The notes under the pieces are model-generated. The model was not told where the DNA came from. It did no database searches and worked only from the letters and a program-made list of their open reading frames with translations. Positions 20,656 through 30,223 of a stretch of 64,000 nucleotides of DNA are shown here, one piece after another. Position numbers and translations under genes: made by a program. This DNA is from Kribbella pratensis (GTDB lineage: Bacteria > Actinomycetota > Actinomycetes > Propionibacteriales > Kribbellaceae): assembly GCF_004365355.1 (NCBI RefSeq), contig NZ_SODP01000002.1:677838-741837 (forward strand). Direction: 5' to 3'. Position 1 is the stretch's first letter. The number at the start of each line of letters is the position of its first letter.

Positions 20656-21333
20656 TCAGACAGGCAAGCAGGCCGCGCTGTGGGTGAAGCGGCGGAGGGC
20701 GAGCGCCGCCAGGCGTGGGTCGGCGCCAAGCGGCGCGCTGACGAGATGGCCCCGGGCGTGCCGTCGGACGAGGCCCTCGAAGAAGCCGGGTGCCAGGAGG
20801 TACGTCGCGACCGCGACTCGGCCCGGCGTCCGGGCGAGGACGGCTGGGAGGCGTTCGCCGGCGCCGGAGAGGTAGCCGACTCGCACCGGTCGATCGATGC
20901 GGCGGGACAACAGCGCGGCGGTCTCCTCGCAGTCGAGCAACGCGCGGGCGTCGGAGGAGCCGGCCGCGGCCAGTACGACGTGGTCGATGCGGGACAGATC
21001 GCCGAGCCGATCGGCCAGGATCTCGGCGAGGACGGGATCGGGCCCGAGCGCCTCCGCCGCGTGCACCTGTCCCGGATAGCGCTCCACCTCGGCCGCGACG
21101 TCGACGTACACGTGGTAGCCGGAGCTGAGCAACAACGGCACCACGACGGCCTCGTTGCTATCAGCAACCACTCGGCGCATCAGCTCGGGTAGCGCCGGAA
21201 GGTTGAGATCCACGAATCCGAGCGAGATCGGGACGTCCGGCCGCTGCCGCGCCATCTCGCGCACGAGGTCGTGCACCACCCGGATCCCGCGCGGATCCGC
21301 CGTACCGTGGGCAACGGCAACCAGATCGGTCAT
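20656..21333 (-). CDS. Sirohydrochlorin chelatase (CbiX/SirB-like)
   Basis: A 225-residue class II chelatase with two CbiX-like halves. The N-terminal VAVAHGTADPRG supplies the first metal-binding His, and VPLLLSSGYHVYVDV the second. It inserts iron (or cobalt) into sirohydrochlorin. Its place downstream of nirB, nirD and uroporphyrinogen-III synthase points to the iron reaction that makes siroheme for nitrite reductase. The start overlaps the upstream stop by 4 bp. Confidence 0.9.
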   Translation of the reverse strand: MTDLVAVAHGTADPRGIRVVHDLVREMARQRPDVPISLGFVDLNLPALPELMRRVVADSNEAVVVPLLLSSGYHVYVDVAAEVERYPGQVHAAEALGPDPVLAEILADRLGDLSRIDHVVLAAAGSSDARALLDCEETAALLSRRIDRPVRVGYLSGAGERLPAVLARTPGRVAVATYLLAPGFFEGLVRRHARGHLVSAPLGADPRLAALALRRFTHSAACLPV

Positions 21334-22454
21334 GAAGGCACCCCCGCCGGCTCGACGGCGAGCCGGTAACCACGGCGGACCACTGTGCGGACCAATTCGG
21401 GGCGACCGACGGCCGTGCGGAGGCGGTTGACGGTGACCTCCACGGCATGGACGTCCTCGGCACCCGGCAACACCGCGAGCAACTCCGGCCGGGACACCAC
21501 ATCACCGCCCGCGGCAACGAGAGCAGCCAGCACTGCACGAGGCCCAGGACCGAGCGGGAGTACGACGCCGTCCAGCACCGCCGCGCCGCCGCGGATCACC
21601 AACTGCCCGAACGCCGTCTCGATGGACCGCGCGTTGTCGTCGGTCAGCCGATCGGTCACGATCCGGATCAACGCACCCAGCCGGAACCGATCCGGCACCA
21701 GCGGCTCCAGCCCCAACGCCACAAAGGGCCCCGCAGTCACCGGTCCGACGCACGCGTTCAGCACGCGCCCTGTCCGCAGCGTCGCCACCAACGCGTCGTA
21801 CTGCCCGGTCAGCGCCGCCGCGTCAAGCATGGCCTGCGCACCCGGCGCCGACGTGTGAACGACGGCATCCACGGTGCCCGCACAAATCTGCGAGATCATC
21901 CGCTCGACGACAACCGGATCAGGCGCCGGTCCCCACCGATACACCTCCAGCCCGCGCACCGACGCTCCCGCCGTACGCAAGGCATCCTGCAACGCGGGAT
22001 CCGACAGACCGTGCAGTTGTACGACGATCTTCCGGCCGTGCACGCCCTGGGTCCGTAACCACTCCACCACCTCGGCCGTCGTCTCCGACCGCGCCGACCA
22101 GTGCTCGACCAGCCCGGCTGCCCGGATCGCGCCGCGCGCCTTCGGGCCGCGGGCGAGGATCCTCGACTGCTCCAACGTGCTCAGCAGATCAGCGGCCAGC
22201 CCCGCGGTGTCGGCCGCCTCGACCCAGCCGCGGAACCCGACCGCGGTGGTGACCACGACATCGTCCGGCGGGTTCGCGATCACCCGCCGGGTGGCCTCGA
22301 TCAGCGTGTGGTCGTCCGCGACCGGCACGATCTGCAGCGTCGGCGCATGCAGCACCTTCGCGCCGCGCCGCTCGAACGACGCGATCAGATCCTCGGCACG
22401 CCGATGCGCGGTGATCGCGATCGTGCAACCGCTGAGCGGCCCCTGCCTAGCCAC
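21330..22454 (-). CDS. hemD: Uroporphyrinogen-III synthase with C-terminal winged-helix domain
   Basis: Residues 1 to about 265 are a HemD fold (GCTIAITAHRRAEDLIASFERRGAKVLHAPTL at the start, VVHTSAPGAQAMLDAA and LNACVGPVTAGPFVALGLEP later), which closes the tetrapyrrole ring to uroporphyrinogen III. Residues about 285-374 are an OmpR/PhoB-type winged helix (GPGPRAVLAALVAAGGDVVSRPELLAVL, VEVTVNRLRTAVGRPELVRTVVRRGYRL). This combination is known in actinobacteria, where it is often annotated as a bifunctional HemD/response regulator. Position in the nitrate operon suggests siroheme supply and possibly feedback control. It overlaps nirD by 8 bp. Confidence 0.9.
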   Translation of the reverse strand: MARQGPLSGCTIAITAHRRAEDLIASFERRGAKVLHAPTLQIVPVADDHTLIEATRRVIANPPDDVVVTTAVGFRGWVEAADTAGLAADLLSTLEQSRILARGPKARGAIRAAGLVEHWSARSETTAEVVEWLRTQGVHGRKIVVQLHGLSDPALQDALRTAGASVRGLEVYRWGPAPDPVVVERMISQICAGTVDAVVHTSAPGAQAMLDAAALTGQYDALVATLRTGRVLNACVGPVTAGPFVALGLEPLVPDRFRLGALIRIVTDRLTDDNARSIETAFGQLVIRGGAAVLDGVVLPLGPGPRAVLAALVAAGGDVVSRPELLAVLPGAEDVHAVEVTVNRLRTAVGRPELVRTVVRRGYRLAVEPAGVPS

Positions 22455-22764
22455 CGTTGCCCACCACGACCTGACCGTCGACGACCTCGACCGGATACAC
22501 CGGCAGCGAGACGTCCGGGTCGTCCAGGCACTCGCCCGTGCGTAGCGAGAAGACCTGCTTGAACATCGGCGACGCCACCGTCGGTACGTCGCCCCGGCTG
22601 CCGACGATGCCGCGCGACATCACGTTCGCCCCGCTGAACGGGTCCTGGTTGCCCAGGGCAAACACTTCGCCGTCGTGAGTGCGGAACAACGCGATCTGCA
22701 CATCCCCGAGCAGGGCGGCGACACCACGCTCCGGCAGCAGGACGTCGTACTCACAGACCATCAT
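22447..22764 (-). CDS. nirD: Nitrite reductase small subunit NirD
   Basis: A 105-residue Rieske-like protein: LGDVQIALFRTHDGEVFALGNQDPFSGANVMSRGIVGS and VASPMFKQVFSLRTGECLDDPDVSLPVYPVEVVDGQVVV. The Cys/His Rieske ligands are absent, which is normal for NirD. It is the small subunit of assimilatory NADH-dependent nitrite reductase. GGAGGT stands six bases before ATG 22764, and that ATG overlaps the nirB stop (ATGA). Confidence 0.92.
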   Translation of the reverse strand: MMVCEYDVLLPERGVAALLGDVQIALFRTHDGEVFALGNQDPFSGANVMSRGIVGSRGDVPTVASPMFKQVFSLRTGECLDDPDVSLPVYPVEVVDGQVVVGNGG

Positions 22765-25700
22765 CGGCGTACCTCCAATCGGGGGCCGGCCAGCAGGACC
22801 GGCTCGAGCTGCCCGCGTTCGGCCGGGCTGGCCGGGCGCGGCTGACTGCGCTCGACGACGTAGCGCAGGTCGGCGTCGGGCTGATCCGGCGCGTTCACGA
22901 ACGACACGAACCGGGCCAGCTTCTGCGGGTCGTTCAGCGTCGCCTGCCACTCGTCGACGTACGAGTCGACATGGCGAGCCATCGCCGCGTCGAGATCGGC
23001 GGCGATACCGAGGCTGTCGTTGAGTACGACGTCGCGGACATGGTCGAGTCCACCCTCGAGCTCCCGGATCCACACCGCCGTACGCTGCAGCCGGTCGCCG
23101 GTGCGGATGTAGTACATGAGGAACCGGTCGATCGCTTGGAACAGCTCCTCATCGCTGAGATCGGACGCGAGCAGCTCCGCATGCCGGGGCGTCATCCCGC
23201 CGTTGCCGCCGACGTACACGTTCCAGCCCTTCTCGGTCGCGATCACGCCGACGTCCTTGCCGCGGGCTTCGGCGCATTCGCGCGCGCATCCGGACACGCC
23301 GAGCTTGAGCTTGTGCGGCGACCGCAGCCCGCGGTACCGCAACTCCAGCGCGATCGCCATGCCGACAGAGTCCTGTACGCCGTACCGGCACCAGGTGGAT
23401 CCGACGCACGACTTCACCGTCCGCAGCGCCTTGCCGTACGCATGCCCTGACTCGAACCCGGCGTCGACCAGCCGCTTCCAGATCGCCGGCAACTGCTCGA
23501 TGCGTGCGCCGAACAGATCGACACGCTGCCCGCCGGTGATCTTCGTGTACAGCCCGAAGTCGCGCGCCACCTCGCCGATCGTGATCAGACCCTCCGGCGT
23601 GATCTCACCGCCGGGGATGCGCGGTACGACGGAGTACGTGCCGTCCTTCTGCATGTTGGCCATCACGTGGTCGTTGGTGTCCTGCAGCGTCGCGCGCTCG
23701 CCCTCGAGGACGTGGCCGGCCGGGTCGAGGCTCGCCAAGATCGACGCCACCACGGGCTTGCAGATGTCGCAGCCGCGCCCGGTCCCGTGCCGCTCGACGA
23801 TCTCGCTGAACGTCCGCAGCTCGGTGATCCGGACGACGTCGAACAGCTCCGCCCGGCTCAGCGCGAAGTGCTCGCACAGCGCCTTGCTGACCTCGACACC
23901 GGCCTTGGTGAGCTCGGCGTTGAGCAGGTTCTTCACAACCGGCAGGCACGAACCACAGCTGGTTCCCGCCTTGGTCCTCCCGCAGACCGACTTGATGTCG
24001 CCGCAGCCTTCATCGCGTACGGCGCACCGGATCGTCCCCGCCGACACGTTGTTGCACGAGCACACCGGCGCGTCGTCCGGTAGCTCGAGCTGGACCGGCG
24101 CGGCACCTTCCGGCAGCAGGAACGCGGCCGGGTCCGCACCGAGCTCGCGGCCGACCATCGGGCGCAGTCCGGAGTACGCCGAGGCGTCGCCGACCAGGAT
24201 GCCGCCGAGCAGCGTCCGCGCGTCGTCGGACAGCACGAGCTTCTTGTAGACGCCGGCCACCGGATCGGCGTACACGATGTCGAGTGCGCCCTCGGTCGCG
24301 CCGAACGCATCGCCGAAGCTCGCGACGTCGACGCCGAGTAGCTTCAGTTTGGTCGACGTGTCCGCGCCGGGGAACGTTGCCTCGCCACCTAGTAGGCGGT
24401 CGGCAACGATCTCGGCCATGGTGTAGCCGGGGGCAATCAATCCCCACACGCGGCCTTCGATACAAGCTACTTCGCCGATCGCCCACACGCCGGGCACCGA
24501 CGTACGGCAGGCCTCGTCCACGACGACGCCGCCGCGCTCGCCGATCTCCAGACCGGCCTCGCGACCGAGCTCATCGCGCGGACGGACACCGGTCGCGAAC
24601 ACCACGACGTCAGCCGGCAGGTCGGGGCCGTCAGCAACGGCCATCGCCCGCGCCGCACCTTGCGGGGTGAGCTTGACGCGCTGGCACTGAGTTGCCGTCA
24701 GTACTTCGACGTCGAGCCCCTCGATCAACCGCGACAGCGCGGAACCGCCGCCCTCGTCGACCTGCAACGGCATCAGCCGCGGCGCGAACTCGACGACCTT
24801 CGTCGCCGCATCCAGCGCCCGCAGTGCACCGGCCGCCTCCAGGCCGAGCAGACCGCCGCCGACGACGACACCGTTGACCTTCTTGCCTTCCGACTTCAGG
24901 CGTTCGACGTACACGCGCAGTGCGGCGACGTCGTCGATGGTCCGGTAGACGAAGCAGCCTTGCGCGTCGTTGTTCTTCACGGGCGGGATGAACGCCGCGG
25001 ACCCGGTCGCCAGGACCAGTTCGTCGTACCCGACCTCCTCGCCGCGCGCCGTCGTCACGGTCTTCGCCGTCGTGTCGATCGAGGTGATCCGGACGCCCTT
25101 GCGAAGGTTCACCGCCGGGTCGTCCCACAGGTCAGGGTCGCCGAGGGACAGGTCTTGCGGGTCGCGGCCGGAGAAGTAGCTGGTCAGCGCGACCCGGTCG
25201 TACGGGAGCCGTGGCTCCTCGGCGAACACCGTGATGCGATAGGTGATGTCGGTGTCGCGTTGCCGCAGCGCCTCGACCAGCCGGTGCGCGACCATGCCGC
25301 CGCCTACCACCACAACGTGCTTGGCCTTCTTCAGCTCTGCCATCGTCGCCCTCCTGCTCGGGACTGGTTCGGTCTCGCCGCGCCGGAAGCGGTCGAGCAG
25401 TTCGCCGACGGCGCCGGTGCAACTCCCGCACCCGGTCGTCGCCCGCGTCGTGGCGGCGATGCCGTCGACACTGTCGGCACCTCCATGCCAGGCCGCCTCG
25501 ATCGCGGCCCTGGTAACCCCGTTGCACCGACAGACCGCCGGCACCCTCTTGGTCGGTACTTCGGTTGCCGTGAGCAACCCCTCCGCAACAACCGGCGTCC
25601 CCCGATCCGCCAGCAGTACCAGTTCCGCCGCCACCTCAGGCGCCCCCACCACCACCGCCGAACGCACGACGCCGTCCCGCAGGACGGCCCGCACATACCT

Positions 25701-26657
25701 GCTGCCGTCCTCCAGCCGCACAACCTCGCCGGTCTCGTCCTTGTCGCCTAGCACAAGCACGTCAAGCCCACCCGCGGTCAGCCGCACGACCTCGTAGTCG
25801 GGCAGCTCCGTCGTCTCTCCCGAGAAGCGCCGGGACAGGGCTTCGGCGTGCGACCACGCGGACGCGACCGTGCCGGTCAGGCGGCCTTCGACCTCGGCGC
25901 AGTCACCGATTGCGTGAATGCTTGGGTCGTCGGGGCTCGTGAGCGTGTGGTCGACGACAATGCCGGTGCGGACTGTAAGCCCCGTAGCCAGCTCGGTCCG
26001 CGGTTGCACGCCGCACGCGACCACGAGCAAGTCGCCGAATACCTGCCGCCCACTGCGCAACTTCAACGCCCGGAAGCGCCCGTCCCGAATGTCGGTCCCG
26101 TCGAGCGTGGTGTTGAGCAGTACTTCGACACCCAAATCCCGCACTGCCCGCGTGACCCGCCGCCCAGCAGACGCCCGGATCGTCTTGTCCAACAGCGTTT
26201 GCCCGTCGTGCACCAGCGTCACGGCAACCCCGCGCTCCCGCAGCGCACAAGCAGTCTCGACGCCAAGCACACCACCACCGAGTACAACCGCCCGCCTCAC
26301 CGAGCCCGCCGCCTCCACGACTGCCCGCGCATCATCCACCGACCGCAGCGTCTGCACTCCATCCGCTGCGACAACCTCACCAGGGACCGTCGGCACTGCC
26401 CCGGTCGCGAACACCAGTCGGTCGTAACCCCATTCGCGCCCAGTGGCATCGCGCACCACGCGGCGGTCCCGGTCCGCCGCCACGGCGGTAGCCATCGGTT
26501 CATCGCCCATCAGCGGCTCAGCGCGGCCGGCGACGTACTCGGTCAGCCTGCTCCGGTTGTACGACGGCTCGTCGCCTAGCACCGTCACGTCGTACGACGG
26601 CAACAGCTCGGCCAACCGGCGCCCGGCCATGCCGCCGCCGATGATCACAACCTTCAT
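22761..26657 (-). CDS. nirB: NasB-like FAD/[2Fe-2S] module fused in frame to nitrite reductase large subunit NirB
   Basis: One uninterrupted frame of 1298 codons. Residues 1 to about 365 are an FAD/NAD(P)-dependent reductase (VVIIGGGMAG start, VVLGGGVLGVETA NAD site), and about 372-425 a BFD-like [2Fe-2S] domain (VCRCNGVTR and TGCGSC). Residues 439-1298 are a complete NirB: FAD/NAD domains, a BFD domain (VCSCNNVS, TSCGSC), and a siroheme/[4Fe-4S] domain with SCVGSTWC and SGCARECAE. NirB reduces nitrite to ammonium with NADH. NasB-like proteins pass electrons to nitrate reductase, whose gene lies directly upstream with a 4-bp overlap. No stop separates the parts, yet a strong AGGAGGG stands five bases before the codon-439 ATG (25343), so a free NirB of 860 residues may also be made. 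Confidence 0.88.
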   Translation of the reverse strand: MKVVIIGGGMAGRRLAELLPSYDVTVLGDEPSYNRSRLTEYVAGRAEPLMGDEPMATAVAADRDRRVVRDATGREWGYDRLVFATGAVPTVPGEVVAADGVQTLRSVDDARAVVEAAGSVRRAVVLGGGVLGVETACALRERGVAVTLVHDGQTLLDKTIRASAGRRVTRAVRDLGVEVLLNTTLDGTDIRDGRFRALKLRSGRQVFGDLLVVACGVQPRTELATGLTVRTGIVVDHTLTSPDDPSIHAIGDCAEVEGRLTGTVASAWSHAEALSRRFSGETTELPDYEVVRLTAGGLDVLVLGDKDETGEVVRLEDGSRYVRAVLRDGVVRSAVVVGAPEVAAELVLLADRGTPVVAEGLLTATEVPTKRVPAVCRCNGVTRAAIEAAWHGGADSVDGIAATTRATTGCGSCTGAVGELLDRFRRGETEPVPSRRATMAELKKAKHVVVVGGGMVAHRLVEALRQRDTDITYRITVFAEEPRLPYDRVALTSYFSGRDPQDLSLGDPDLWDDPAVNLRKGVRITSIDTTAKTVTTARGEEVGYDELVLATGSAAFIPPVKNNDAQGCFVYRTIDDVAALRVYVERLKSEGKKVNGVVVGGGLLGLEAAGALRALDAATKVVEFAPRLMPLQVDEGGGSALSRLIEGLDVEVLTATQCQRVKLTPQGAARAMAVADGPDLPADVVVFATGVRPRDELGREAGLEIGERGGVVVDEACRTSVPGVWAIGEVACIEGRVWGLIAPGYTMAEIVADRLLGGEATFPGADTSTKLKLLGVDVASFGDAFGATEGALDIVYADPVAGVYKKLVLSDDARTLLGGILVGDASAYSGLRPMVGRELGADPAAFLLPEGAAPVQLELPDDAPVCSCNNVSAGTIRCAVRDEGCGDIKSVCGRTKAGTSCGSCLPVVKNLLNAELTKAGVEVSKALCEHFALSRAELFDVVRITELRTFSEIVERHGTGRGCDICKPVVASILASLDPAGHVLEGERATLQDTNDHVMANMQKDGTYSVVPRIPGGEITPEGLITIGEVARDFGLYTKITGGQRVDLFGARIEQLPAIWKRLVDAGFESGHAYGKALRTVKSCVGSTWCRYGVQDSVGMAIALELRYRGLRSPHKLKLGVSGCARECAEARGKDVGVIATEKGWNVYVGGNGGMTPRHAELLASDLSDEELFQAIDRFLMYYIRTGDRLQRTAVWIRELEGGLDHVRDVVLNDSLGIAADLDAAMARHVDSYVDEWQATLNDPQKLARFVSFVNAPDQPDADLRYVVERSQPRPASPAERGQLEPVLLAGPRLEVRR
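25341..25355 (-). promoter_or_regulatory. Internal ribosome binding site and start for stand-alone NirB
   Basis: On the minus strand AGGAGGG (25355-25349) is followed by CGACG and ATG (25343-25341), then codons for MAELKKAKHVVVVGGGM, the typical start of an independent NirB. It sits inside the continuous frame of the longer fusion. It is the strongest Shine-Dalgarno match in the operon and is unlikely to survive by chance if unused. Confidence 0.6.
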
Positions 26658-28756
26658 GCCGACACTCCCGTCACCGGTAGAACGGCGGCGGTGACTTCGA
26701 CGGCACACGCCTTGAACTCGGGCATCCCCGACACCGGATCGAGCACATCGTTGGTCAGCTCGTTGACAGCCTCGACCCCACCGAAATGGAACGGCACGAA
26801 CACCGTGTCCGGCCGTACGTCGGTCGTCACGCGCGCCGGCAACACCATCGACCCGCGCGCCGTACGCAACCGCACCGGCCGCCCGTCGCCGATCCCCAGC
26901 TGCGCTGCCACCCGCGGATGAAGCTCCGCGAACACCTCCGGCTCCGCCTCAGCCAACTCCGGCACACGCCGCGTCTGCGCGCCGCTCTGGTAGTGCTGCA
27001 ACAGGCGCCCAGTCACCAAGTACAGCGGAGATTCCGCGTTGAGATCATCCGCCACCGGCCGATGATCGACAGCCACCACCCGCGCCCGCCCGTCCGGCGT
27101 GGGGAACCCGTCCGCGAACAATCGCGGCGTACCAGGATGCCCTTCGTGTGGCACCGGCCAGAACAACTCCTCGCCCGCGTCCAACCGCTCCCACGTGATC
27201 CCCGAATAGTCGGCCCGCCCACCGGCACTCGCCCGCCGAAGCTCCTCGAAGACCTCAGCCGGATCGGTCGAAAACCCTTTACTACCGAGCCTTTCGGCCA
27301 AACCGGCGAAAACCGCGAGATCGCTCCGCACTTCACCAGGAGGCGCTACGGCGGTACGCCGCCGCAGTACCCGTCCCTCGAGCGACGTCATCGTGCCGTC
27401 CTCTTCGGCCCACTGCGTCACCGGAAACACCACATCCGCCAGCAGCGCGGTCTCGGACGGGACTACGTCCGTCACGACCAATAGCTCTAGTGAAGCGAGC
27501 CGCTCGCGCACGGAGGCGAGGTTCGGCGCCGACACCAGCAAGTTGCTCCCGTGAACCATCAAGGCCTTGGGCCCGTCCGGTTGCCCGAGCGAGTTGATCA
27601 GTTCAACCGCGCTCTTCCCGGGGCCGGGCAGGTCCTCCACACCCCAGACCCGCATCAGGTGCGCACGAGCCGCCGGGTCGGAGATGCTCCGATAACCAGG
27701 GAGCTGATCCGCCTTCTGCCCGTGCTCGCGACCGCCCTGCCCGTTCCCCTGCCCCGTGATGCACCCGTACCCGCTTCCCAACCGCCCAGGAAGCCCGAGC
27801 GCCAGCGCGAGGTTGATACAAGCAGTCACCGTGTCAGTGCCTTTGCTGTGCTGCTCGGCCCCGCGCCCGGTCAGGATGAACGCACCCGCGCCACCATGAA
27901 CCGGAGCCGCCGCTGCCAGCACCCGCGCGGCCCGGCGGATCGTCGCGGCAGGCACACCAGTCACCCGCTCAGCCCGCTCCGGCCACCACGACGCCGTGGA
28001 GCGAATCAGCAGGTCCGGATCGTCGACCCGCTCGGCCAAGTAGGCCGTGTCCGCAAGGCCTTCCTGCAGCACCACGTGTGTCAGAGCGAGCACCAAGGCG
28101 AGGTCCGTGCCAGGTGTGGCTTGCAGGTGGATGCCGCCGTCGTCCGCGGTGAGTCCGGCGGTGGCCGAGAGGCGCGGGTCGACGACCAGAAGCCCACCCG
28201 CGTCCCTCGCCCCTTGCAGCTGTGCGACCGCCGGCGGCATCGTCTCCGCGATGTTGCTGCCGACCAGCAGGATCGCGCCGGCACCGCCCAGATCCGCCAG
28301 CGGGAACGGCAGCCCCCGGTCGATCCCGAACGCCCGGTTCGTCGCGGCTGCCGCCGACGACATACAGAACCGGCCGTTGTAGTCCACATTCGCCGTCTTC
28401 AACGCCACCCGCGCGAACTTCCCCAGCGCGTATGCCTTCTCGTTCGTCAGCCCGCCGCCGCCGAACACCGCCACCGCGTCCCGGCCGTGCGTGTCCTGCA
28501 GCGACTGGATGCGTGAGGCAACGAAATCCAGCGCGGTGTCCCAGCTCGTCTCCACCAGTTCGCCCGCGGCGTTGCGGATCAGCGGCGTGGTGAGCCGATC
28601 CGGCACCGTGAGTACGTCGGGAGCCGTCCAGCCCTTGCGGCACAGCCCGCCTCGGCCGGCGGGGCGCACCTCCACGGCACCCGGTCGCGCGACCGGGTGC
28701 AGCGTGGTGGCGCACTGCAGAGCGCAGTACGGACAGTGAGTAAGGACAGAGCTCAC
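26654..28756 (-). CDS. nasA: Assimilatory nitrate reductase, molybdopterin catalytic subunit
   Basis: A 700-residue Mo-bisMGD oxidoreductase. The N-terminal [4Fe-4S] motif is complete (Cys8, Cys11, Cys15 and Cys39 in HCPYCALQC and GGLCRKGW). GGGGLTNEKAYALGKFAR, VGSNIAETMPP, GRGAEQHSKGTDTVTACINLALALG and a C-terminal molybdopterin dinucleotide-binding domain (YLVTGRLLQHYQSGAQTRRVPEL) follow. It reduces nitrate to nitrite in the cytoplasm. It lacks the C-terminal BFD-like domain found in many NasA proteins; the neighbouring fusion supplies one. GTG 28756 overlaps the narK stop, with AGGAG five bases upstream. Confidence 0.92.
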   Translation of the reverse strand: MSSVLTHCPYCALQCATTLHPVARPGAVEVRPAGRGGLCRKGWTAPDVLTVPDRLTTPLIRNAAGELVETSWDTALDFVASRIQSLQDTHGRDAVAVFGGGGLTNEKAYALGKFARVALKTANVDYNGRFCMSSAAAATNRAFGIDRGLPFPLADLGGAGAILLVGSNIAETMPPAVAQLQGARDAGGLLVVDPRLSATAGLTADDGGIHLQATPGTDLALVLALTHVVLQEGLADTAYLAERVDDPDLLIRSTASWWPERAERVTGVPAATIRRAARVLAAAAPVHGGAGAFILTGRGAEQHSKGTDTVTACINLALALGLPGRLGSGYGCITGQGNGQGGREHGQKADQLPGYRSISDPAARAHLMRVWGVEDLPGPGKSAVELINSLGQPDGPKALMVHGSNLLVSAPNLASVRERLASLELLVVTDVVPSETALLADVVFPVTQWAEEDGTMTSLEGRVLRRRTAVAPPGEVRSDLAVFAGLAERLGSKGFSTDPAEVFEELRRASAGGRADYSGITWERLDAGEELFWPVPHEGHPGTPRLFADGFPTPDGRARVVAVDHRPVADDLNAESPLYLVTGRLLQHYQSGAQTRRVPELAEAEPEVFAELHPRVAAQLGIGDGRPVRLRTARGSMVLPARVTTDVRPDTVFVPFHFGGVEAVNELTNDVLDPVSGMPEFKACAVEVTAAVLPVTGVSA

Positions 28757-30129
28757 ACGCGCTCCTGGCTGAGCGGTCCGCCCTTGCGGAGGTAGCAGAA
28801 GTACGTCACCGCCAGGCACAGCACGTAGAACCCGCAGAACACGTACAGCGCCGGGATCAGCGAGCCGAAGTGACTCGTCGACATCGCGAACCCGCGCGGC
28901 ACCAGGAACCCGCCGTACGCACCGACCGCCGACGCGATCCCGATACAGGCCGCCGCCTCACGCCGCGCCCGGCCCGGGTCGCCCGGCGTCGTCAGCCGGA
29001 ACACGGCCGGGATCATCCGGTACGTCGACCCGTTGGCCGCGCCGCTCGCCACGAACAGGACGAGGAAGCTGATCAGGAACGCCGCGAAGCTGCCGGACTT
29101 CACCGACACGATCGCCGCCAGGATGCCGAGCCCCATCACCACGAACGAGCAGACCGTGATCCACGCGCCGCCGATCCGGTCGGCCAGCTTGCCGCCGAAC
29201 GGCCGCGCCACCGACCCGACCAGCGCGCCGAGGAACGCGAAGTGCGCCGGCGTGATGTCCGGGAACGTGGTCTTGATCAGCAGCGGGAACGCCGCCCCGA
29301 AGCCGATGAACGACCCGAACGTGCCGATGTACAGGAACGAGATCACCCAGGTGTGCGGCCGCTTCGCCGCGGCGATCGACGTACGGAACGAGGAGTTCGC
29401 CACCGAGAGGTTGGCCATCACCTTCCACGCCCAGAACGCGGCCAGCACGATCAGCGGCAGCCACATCAGCCCGGCCCGGTTCAGCGACAGCCCCGCGCCG
29501 GCGACGATCACGATCGGCACCAGGAGCTGGACGACGGCGACGCCGAGGTTGCCGCCGGCCGCGTTGATGCCGAGCGCGAAGCCCTTCTCCTTCTCGGGGT
29601 AGAAGAACGAGATGTTGGTCATGCTGCTGGCGAAGTTGCCGCCGCCGACACCCGCGGTCGCCGCGACCAACGCCATCAGCCAGAACGGTGTGTCCGGCCG
29701 GGTCATGAAGTAGGACAGCCCCGCGGTCGGGATCAGCAGGAGCAGCGCCGAGAACACCGTCCAGTTCCGCCCGCCGAACCGCGGTACGGCGAACGTGTAC
29801 GGCAACCGCAGCGTCGCGCCGACCAGACTCGGCAGCGCGACCAGCCAGAACAGCTGGTTGGTGTCGTAACTGAATCCGGCCCTAGGCATCGACACGACGA
29901 CGATGCTCCACAGCTGCCAGACGGAGAAGCCGAGGAACTCGGCGAAGATCGAGGGCCACAGGTTGCGCCGCGCGATCGCACGGCCCTTCCCGGCCCAGAA
30001 CATGGCGTCCTCGGGATCCCAGACGTCGATCCAGCGTCCGCGCCGCGGCGCCTCGACGGTCCCCACGGTGCCCACGGTGCCGTGGGCGTCCCTGGTGGTG
30101 ACGGTCTTCGGTCCTGCCTCGAGCGTCAT
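28753..30129 (-). CDS. narK: Nitrate/nitrite MFS transporter NarK-type
   Basis: A 458-residue NNP-family MFS protein with about 12 helices. The family signatures GVGGGNFASSMTNISFFYPEKEKGFALGINAAGGNLGVA (two nitrate-signature stretches with the FYP motif) and SYDTNQLFWLVALPSLVGATLRLPY are present. It brings nitrate into the cell for the reductases encoded downstream. CGGAG lies about seven bases before ATG 30129; ATG 30156 is an in-frame alternative with a GAGG nearby. First gene of the nitrate operon, preceded by two GlnR-type sites. Confidence 0.93.
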   Translation of the reverse strand: MTLEAGPKTVTTRDAHGTVGTVGTVEAPRRGRWIDVWDPEDAMFWAGKGRAIARRNLWPSIFAEFLGFSVWQLWSIVVVSMPRAGFSYDTNQLFWLVALPSLVGATLRLPYTFAVPRFGGRNWTVFSALLLLIPTAGLSYFMTRPDTPFWLMALVAATAGVGGGNFASSMTNISFFYPEKEKGFALGINAAGGNLGVAVVQLLVPIVIVAGAGLSLNRAGLMWLPLIVLAAFWAWKVMANLSVANSSFRTSIAAAKRPHTWVISFLYIGTFGSFIGFGAAFPLLIKTTFPDITPAHFAFLGALVGSVARPFGGKLADRIGGAWITVCSFVVMGLGILAAIVSVKSGSFAAFLISFLVLFVASGAANGSTYRMIPAVFRLTTPGDPGRARREAAACIGIASAVGAYGGFLVPRGFAMSTSHFGSLIPALYVFCGFYVLCLAVTYFCYLRKGGPLSQERV

Positions 30130-30185
30130 CGCAAGTCTCCGATCATCCGACCTCATCGATTAGGCCTGGACGTTATGACCGGGGT

Positions 30186-30223
30186 GTTTCCGCGTAGTCA
30201 TCTTGTTGTTACGCCGCCGAAAC
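30186..30223. promoter_or_regulatory. GlnR-type operator in front of the nitrate operon
   Basis: Two 16-bp sites of the GlnR pattern GTNAC-N6-GAAAC lie exactly six bases apart. The site at 30208-30223 is a perfect match on the plus strand (GTTAC, six bases, GAAAC). The site at 30186-30201 reads ATGAC, six bases, GAAAC on the minus strand, one mismatch. They therefore face each other as an inverted pair. GlnR is the global nitrogen regulator of many actinobacteria and activates nitrate assimilation genes. The sites lie 57 bp upstream of ATG 30129, a position suited to activation. Confidence 0.72.

Follow-up and report, generated by a model that had tools for sequence, protein, structure and literature searches.

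A NasB-NirB gene fusion specific to Kribbella, with a probable internal start for free NirB, in a nitrate-assimilation operon

An old question in nitrate assimilation is how cells prevent the build-up of nitrite produced by nitrate reductase. In Paracoccus denitrificans, according to published accounts, a NirB-type protein that goes by the name NasB acts together with NasG to feed the nitrate reductase NasC (PMC5424462, PMC4724949, PMC3475470). The flavoprotein Flp of Bradyrhizobium japonicum is described as serving NasC and not nitrite reductase, such that an flp mutant fails on nitrate only. Here we describe an operon of Kribbella pratensis in which a NasB-type electron carrier and a complete NirB share a single open reading frame. 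All coordinates refer to the window, by which we mean the entire stretch of 64,000 nucleotides that was analyzed. No NasB-NirB fusion was reported in the literature searched, to the extent that its texts were accessible (papers naming both Kribbella and nirB lay outside its scope), nor is one reported in the available parts of PMC10704036, PMC4724949, PMC5424462, PMC3475470, PMC4453227, PMC6400420 and PMC11005335. We consider it reasonably probable that this is a Kribbella-specific fusion within a nitrate-assimilation operon of the GlnR type, that it probably yields two proteins, and that it couples nitrate reduction to nitrite reduction.

The fused frame and its operon

The fused frame occupies 22761..26657 on the minus strand and comprises 1298 codons plus a stop, with no stop in between; the mechanical open reading frame begins further upstream, at a GTG at 26708 that lies within nasC, and the ATG at 26657 was taken as the start. 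Its first 438 codons (25344..26657, minus strand) encode the NasB-type module, which consists of a FAD/NAD(P) reductase (residues 1 to about 370) and a Fer2_BFD [2Fe-2S] domain (25392..25535, minus strand; residues 375-422, Pfam PF04324), and which is here a part of the fused frame and not a separate polypeptide. A linker (25320..25391, minus strand; residues 423-446) leads from the BFD domain to the Rossmann fold of NirB, the spanning peptide being GETEPVPSRRATMAEL, and the complete NirB of 860 residues follows (22761..25343, minus strand). Pfam and NCBIfam searches of the whole chain returned two Pyr_redox_2 stretches, the NirB model TIGR02374 at residues 448-1244 and NIR_SIR at 1075-1211, the NirB part having flavin domains, a BFD stretch and sirohaem domains of its own. 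By itself this part scored 1036.5 bits with TIGR02374 (cut-off 578) and 1051 with PRK14989 (cut-off 883). None of the NasB-specific NCBIfam models reached its cut-off on the NasB module, which the domain search and the predicted structure identify as a FAD/NAD reductase with a BFD domain. The AlphaFold model of residues 1-560 (32 rows), the second half of which is poor and which gives nothing on complexes, resembles ferredoxin reductases of the TodA/BphA4 type over the NasB module (Foldseek matches) and has low confidence in the linker, with pLDDT <50 at residues 430-436. A preliminary description of this locus had proposed just such an open frame, joining a FAD/NAD(P)-BFD module of 438 codons to a complete NirB, with possible products of 1298 and 860 residues; the frame scan and the domains agree with it, and both lengths correspond to the frame as read from the ATGs at 26657 and 25343.

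The operon, all of it on the minus strand, has the order narK, nasC, nasB:nirB, nirD. It opens with a narK-type nitrate/nitrite transporter gene (28753..30156; MFS_1 and the NarU/NarK models, both NCBIfam matches being below their cut-offs), which is followed by nasC for the catalytic subunit of assimilatory nitrate reductase (26654..28756), the best NCBIfam match of which is the NasC equivalog NF047855, below its cut-off (703 of 1100 bits). The presumed GTG start of nasC overlaps the narK stop (GTGTGA) and its own stop overlaps the nasB ATG at 26657 (ATGA), while nirD, encoding a small subunit with a Pfam Rieske_2 domain (22447..22764), has its start within the nirB stop, again as ATGA. Since these other three junctions are all stop-start overlaps, the one between nasB and nirB is the sole junction of the operon without a stop. 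Downstream of nirD lie a uroporphyrinogen-III synthase gene with a winged-helix (Trans_reg_C) tail (21330-22454, minus strand) and then a gene for a CbiX protein (20656-21333, minus strand), for which a role in sirohaem supply is plausible.

Distribution within and beyond the genus

The own-family set consisted of 38 genomes, all of the single genus Kribbella, and the junction is free of stops in 36 of them. The gap between fixed alignment points measures 45 nt, with the exceptions of 42 nt in L035 and 48 nt in L040, such that every gap length is a multiple of three and the linker is constant to within one codon. The CRCN...CGSC motif of the Fer2_BFD domain is kept in all 36 fused genes. Outside Kribbella, a stop separates NasB from NirB in 59 of 59 loci where the two are adjacent (at least three genomes being counted twice, as L058/L108, L064/L141 and L069/L148), and NasB is not adjacent in 25 further loci. 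In a wider search of 394 genomes from the class and 396 from the phylum, drawn evenly and with matches taken within an E-value limit, our own genome alone spans the junction without a stop among the matches listed, and G104 and G319 span it with one TAA; a distant fusion could exist beyond these matches. Within this sampling NasB-NirB is a fusion specific to Kribbella, a new combination of known parts. The preliminary description had proposed looking for the stop-less junction in relatives and would have counted two separate genes in all of these, with only free NirB detected, against its proposal: within Kribbella the junction turns up and the proposal stands, and the two-gene state holds outside the genus, where the fusion is absent. 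One record named Streptomyces sp. SID13031 (L102) carries the Kribbella fusion at 82% identity, and its name looks wrong.

In the two remaining Kribbella genomes, G027 and G023, NasB is missing from the locus, and nirB comes directly after narK with an overlapping or adjacent start preceded by AGGAG. These sites, from which nasC and the nasB module have been lost, lie around position 5638 of L042 (G027) and around position 8013 of L043 (G023). Neither genome contains a close NasC, the best NasC-like matches being 38% and 35% identical, respectively. In the NirB tree Kribbella forms one clade (100/100) with G023 and G027 nested inside fused groups, and because both sit among fused genomes they are most simply explained by two losses. 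As each of the two losses took NasC along with NasB, the module appears to be tied to nitrate.

Upstream of narK, on the minus strand, there are two GlnR-like boxes (30186..30223), defined as GTNAC-N6-GAAAC matched at no fewer than 8 of 9 positions within 220 nt upstream; the one at 30208-30223 matches at 9/9 and the one at 30186-30201 at 8/9. All 28 distinct narK upstreams from Kribbella contain a 9/9 box. Ahead of nirB a box occurs in just 1 of 38 Kribbella cases (0.5 expected from base shuffles), as against 48 of 80 distinct upstreams outside the genus (1.5 expected). Allowing two mismatches, the pattern has 81 matches window-wide versus 116 expected, and we therefore confined its use to 9/9 and 8/9 matches near start codons. 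In Aeromicrobium (L058) and in G104 (L059) the nasB stop TAA, which is in the NirB frame, lies inside the GlnR-like box. Loss of the box could consequently delete a promoter and the nasB stop together, and from this arrangement we infer a possible route to the fusion in which both would have gone at once.

Such a route could also have produced a fusion of no consequence, in which the intergenic promoter and stop were lost, the tether is passive, only co-expression matters, and the internal Shine-Dalgarno sequence discussed below is retained as the source of most NirB. Ribosomes already cross from gene to gene at the stop-start overlaps elsewhere in the operon, the box of L058 and L059 offers a means of removing the stop, and free NirB suffices in the two lineages that lack the module. 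Against this, no stop has been regained in 36 genomes of a genus with a mean dS of about 0.5-1, and the length of the linker is nearly fixed. We regard a neutral origin and persistence as unlikely, though deserving of serious attention, and retain a functional fusion as our preferred reading.

A second start inside the frame

In the preliminary description an AGGAGGG had been placed five bases before the NirB ATG and called a strong internal ribosome site. The motif is indeed located there (25349..25355, minus strand), encoded by two AGG arginine codons, and the in-frame ATG which it precedes (25341..25343, minus strand; codon 439), the predicted start of free NirB, is an ATG in 36 of 36 fused genes. 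The Shine-Dalgarno sequence reads AGGAGG in 32 of them, AGAAGG in three and AGGAAG in one, and no other site in the gene carries AGGAGG in as many as five of the 36 genes. At codons 435 and 436, all 71 arginine codons are AGG or AGA, the one other genome having a lysine AAG at 436, versus an AGR share of 3.3% in the 89 other arginine columns (30 or more Arg each). Consistent with the position of the predicted start, the free NirB of G023 and G027 begins 3-5 codons from the equivalent of the internal ATG.

Could the second start be a relic, with the 1298-residue fusion alone being made and AGG-AGG persisting by descent or through a constraint on the amino acids? The codons are partly inherited within the genus, as the first base of arginine is unchanged in 64 of 91 arginine columns. 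However, AGG is exchanged with CGN at arginine columns 377, 383, 405, 935 and 1091, no pair other than this one is fixed as AGR among all 91, and the arginine run sits in the very linker that AlphaFold predicts with low confidence. A relic thus strikes us as improbable, and given that AGG and CGN replace each other at further arginine columns of these genes, codon choice is the observation to which we give the most weight.

Other measures are less distinctive. A nine-codon scan for synonymous conservation places the junction 41st of 1222 windows, that is, only moderately low, which is why the case for the Shine-Dalgarno sequence has to be built on codon choice. As a yardstick, the Shine-Dalgarno sequence of nirD, which lies within the 3'-terminal part of nirB, shows the same degree of conservation (GGAGG or AGGAG in 35 of 36). 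The median duplex energy at the junction is -10.8 kcal/mol (-12.6 in the window), compared with -10.5 at the nasB start, and about 8% of 458 other internal in-frame ATGs match the junction energy when spacing is ignored. What one looks for in an in-frame internal start, a conserved Shine-Dalgarno sequence and start codon inside the frame, is present here, and the internal start is probably maintained by selection. Because a ribosome site has been kept in this way, the frame is likely to give rise to two products, the 1298-residue chain and free NirB.

Nothing was found in favor of a merger of two separate genes by an error of sequencing or assembly, and this reading can be set aside, given that the junction is the same in 36 of 38 genomes, finished single-contig ones included.

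Electron supply to NasC and likeness to described systems

The reading that we prefer can be laid out as follows. Initiation at the ATG at 26657 would produce the NasB-NirB chain and initiation at the internal AGGAGGG-ATG would produce free NirB. Electrons would pass from NADH to FAD and on to the BFD [2Fe-2S] cluster of the NasB part, and then to NasC, itself devoid of a BFD domain; the NirB part, together with NirD, would reduce the nitrite that NasC produces. Covalent joining would set a lower limit to the carrier-to-NirB ratio and, provided that NasC docks onto the NasB module, would keep the enzymes that make and remove nitrite in one place. Reduction of nitrite by NirB takes six electrons and reduction of nitrate takes two. 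The internal start would supply extra NirB, the partner with the larger electron demand. A bifunctional electron hub in this sense, and with it delivery from the NasB module to NasC, is suggested by family knowledge, by the pattern of losses and by one extreme variant, and a sharing of electrons between nitrate and nitrite reduction is plausible on sequence grounds.

Pfam finds only two molybdopterin domains in NasC, in keeping with the earlier remark that this enzyme lacks a BFD domain. The accompanying suggestion that the fused module replaces a missing NasC domain does not hold, as none of the 63 loci outside Kribbella whose NasC shares 57% identity or more has a BFD-like extension either (the longest extension being 47 residues). 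Since these unfused relatives, in which NasB is separate where adjacent, share the absence, it predates the fusion. The overlap of the NasC stop with the NasB start (ATGA or GTGA) is kept in 35 of the 36 fused genomes, the 36th being a triple fusion. The module is under purifying selection: its dN/dS is about 0.25, with 0.14 for its BFD domain, as compared with 0.09-0.12 for NirB. Its rate of evolution is roughly double that of NirB.

In the exceptional genome, Kribbella sp. VKM Ac-2568 (G019, to which L041, L082 and L105 all belong), a single frame, starting at a GTG, runs through nasC, nasB and nirB and encodes 1865 residues (L041:1588-7185, minus strand). By Pfam it contains the molybdopterin domains, a BFD domain at 941-989 and all of NirB. 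Its NasB lacks residues of about 1-110 and 213-288, which are the two segments that together make up the FAD domain, and what remains between NasC and NirB has a degraded NAD motif and an intact BFD domain. The dN/dS of the remnant is 0.26 versus 0.23 within the clade, with 0.14 for the BFD domain and 0.08 for NirB; the remnant is hence mildly relaxed, with BFD and NirB still constrained. The internal Shine-Dalgarno sequence and ATG are retained. No report of the fusion was found in a literature search for the strain, and this frame, known from a single assembly of a single genome, may represent a gene in decay. If it is real and expressed, NasC could obtain its electrons, via the kept BFD domain, only from the NirB flavin or from an outside donor. 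We view it as possible, albeit on balance doubtful, that the NirB flavin feeds nitrate reductase through the fused BFD domain as a shared hub, of which VKM Ac-2568 would be the single-chain extreme. Should this be true, the chain would convert nitrate to ammonium with NirD as its sole partner, and the internal start would still supply additional free NirB.

A carrier covalently tied to nitrite reductase, in a frame that probably also supplies additional NirB, represents a natural construct for testing the coupling of the two steps. Two synonymous changes of arginine codons would remove the Shine-Dalgarno sequence and leave the protein unchanged, and the genus itself offers a series of genomes that are fused (36/38), have lost the module (2/38) or are fully fused (1 of the 36).

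The nasABGHC system of Paracoccus denitrificans is similar in that a single NirB-type protein, which oxidises NADH, provides for the reduction of nitrate as well as nitrite; it differs in that NasC receives its electrons by way of the Rieske protein NasG, with no extra flavoprotein module fused, and its "NasB" is the nitrite reductase and not a carrier of the Kribbella type. Bradyrhizobium Flp and the NasB-type carriers of Bacillus and actinomycetes, encoded beside NasC, are likewise FAD/NAD flavoproteins for nitrate reductase, but are separate proteins with NirB unattached. The nasACKBDEF nitrate operon of Amycolatopsis mediterranei, also an actinomycete, is described as being under the control of GlnR and as containing genes for both the carrier and nitrite reductase, which are separate if judged from the seven-gene name alone. 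The ichthyosporean CS-pNR combines a nitrate reductase module with FAD-type domains of NAD(P)H nitrite reductase (PMC6400420), a logic close to that of the VKM Ac-2568 triple fusion; it is, however, eukaryotic, its nitrate reductase is of another family, and the nitrite-reducing part is not retained. A long and a short product from one frame with two ribosome sites are also known for infB, clpB and cheA (PMC11005335). Unlike in those genes, the short form in Kribbella would be a complete enzyme whose homologues exist as separate proteins, and the long form is a gene fusion. By analogy, the Kribbella chain could feed NasC alone, as Flp does, or both steps, as in Paracoccus.
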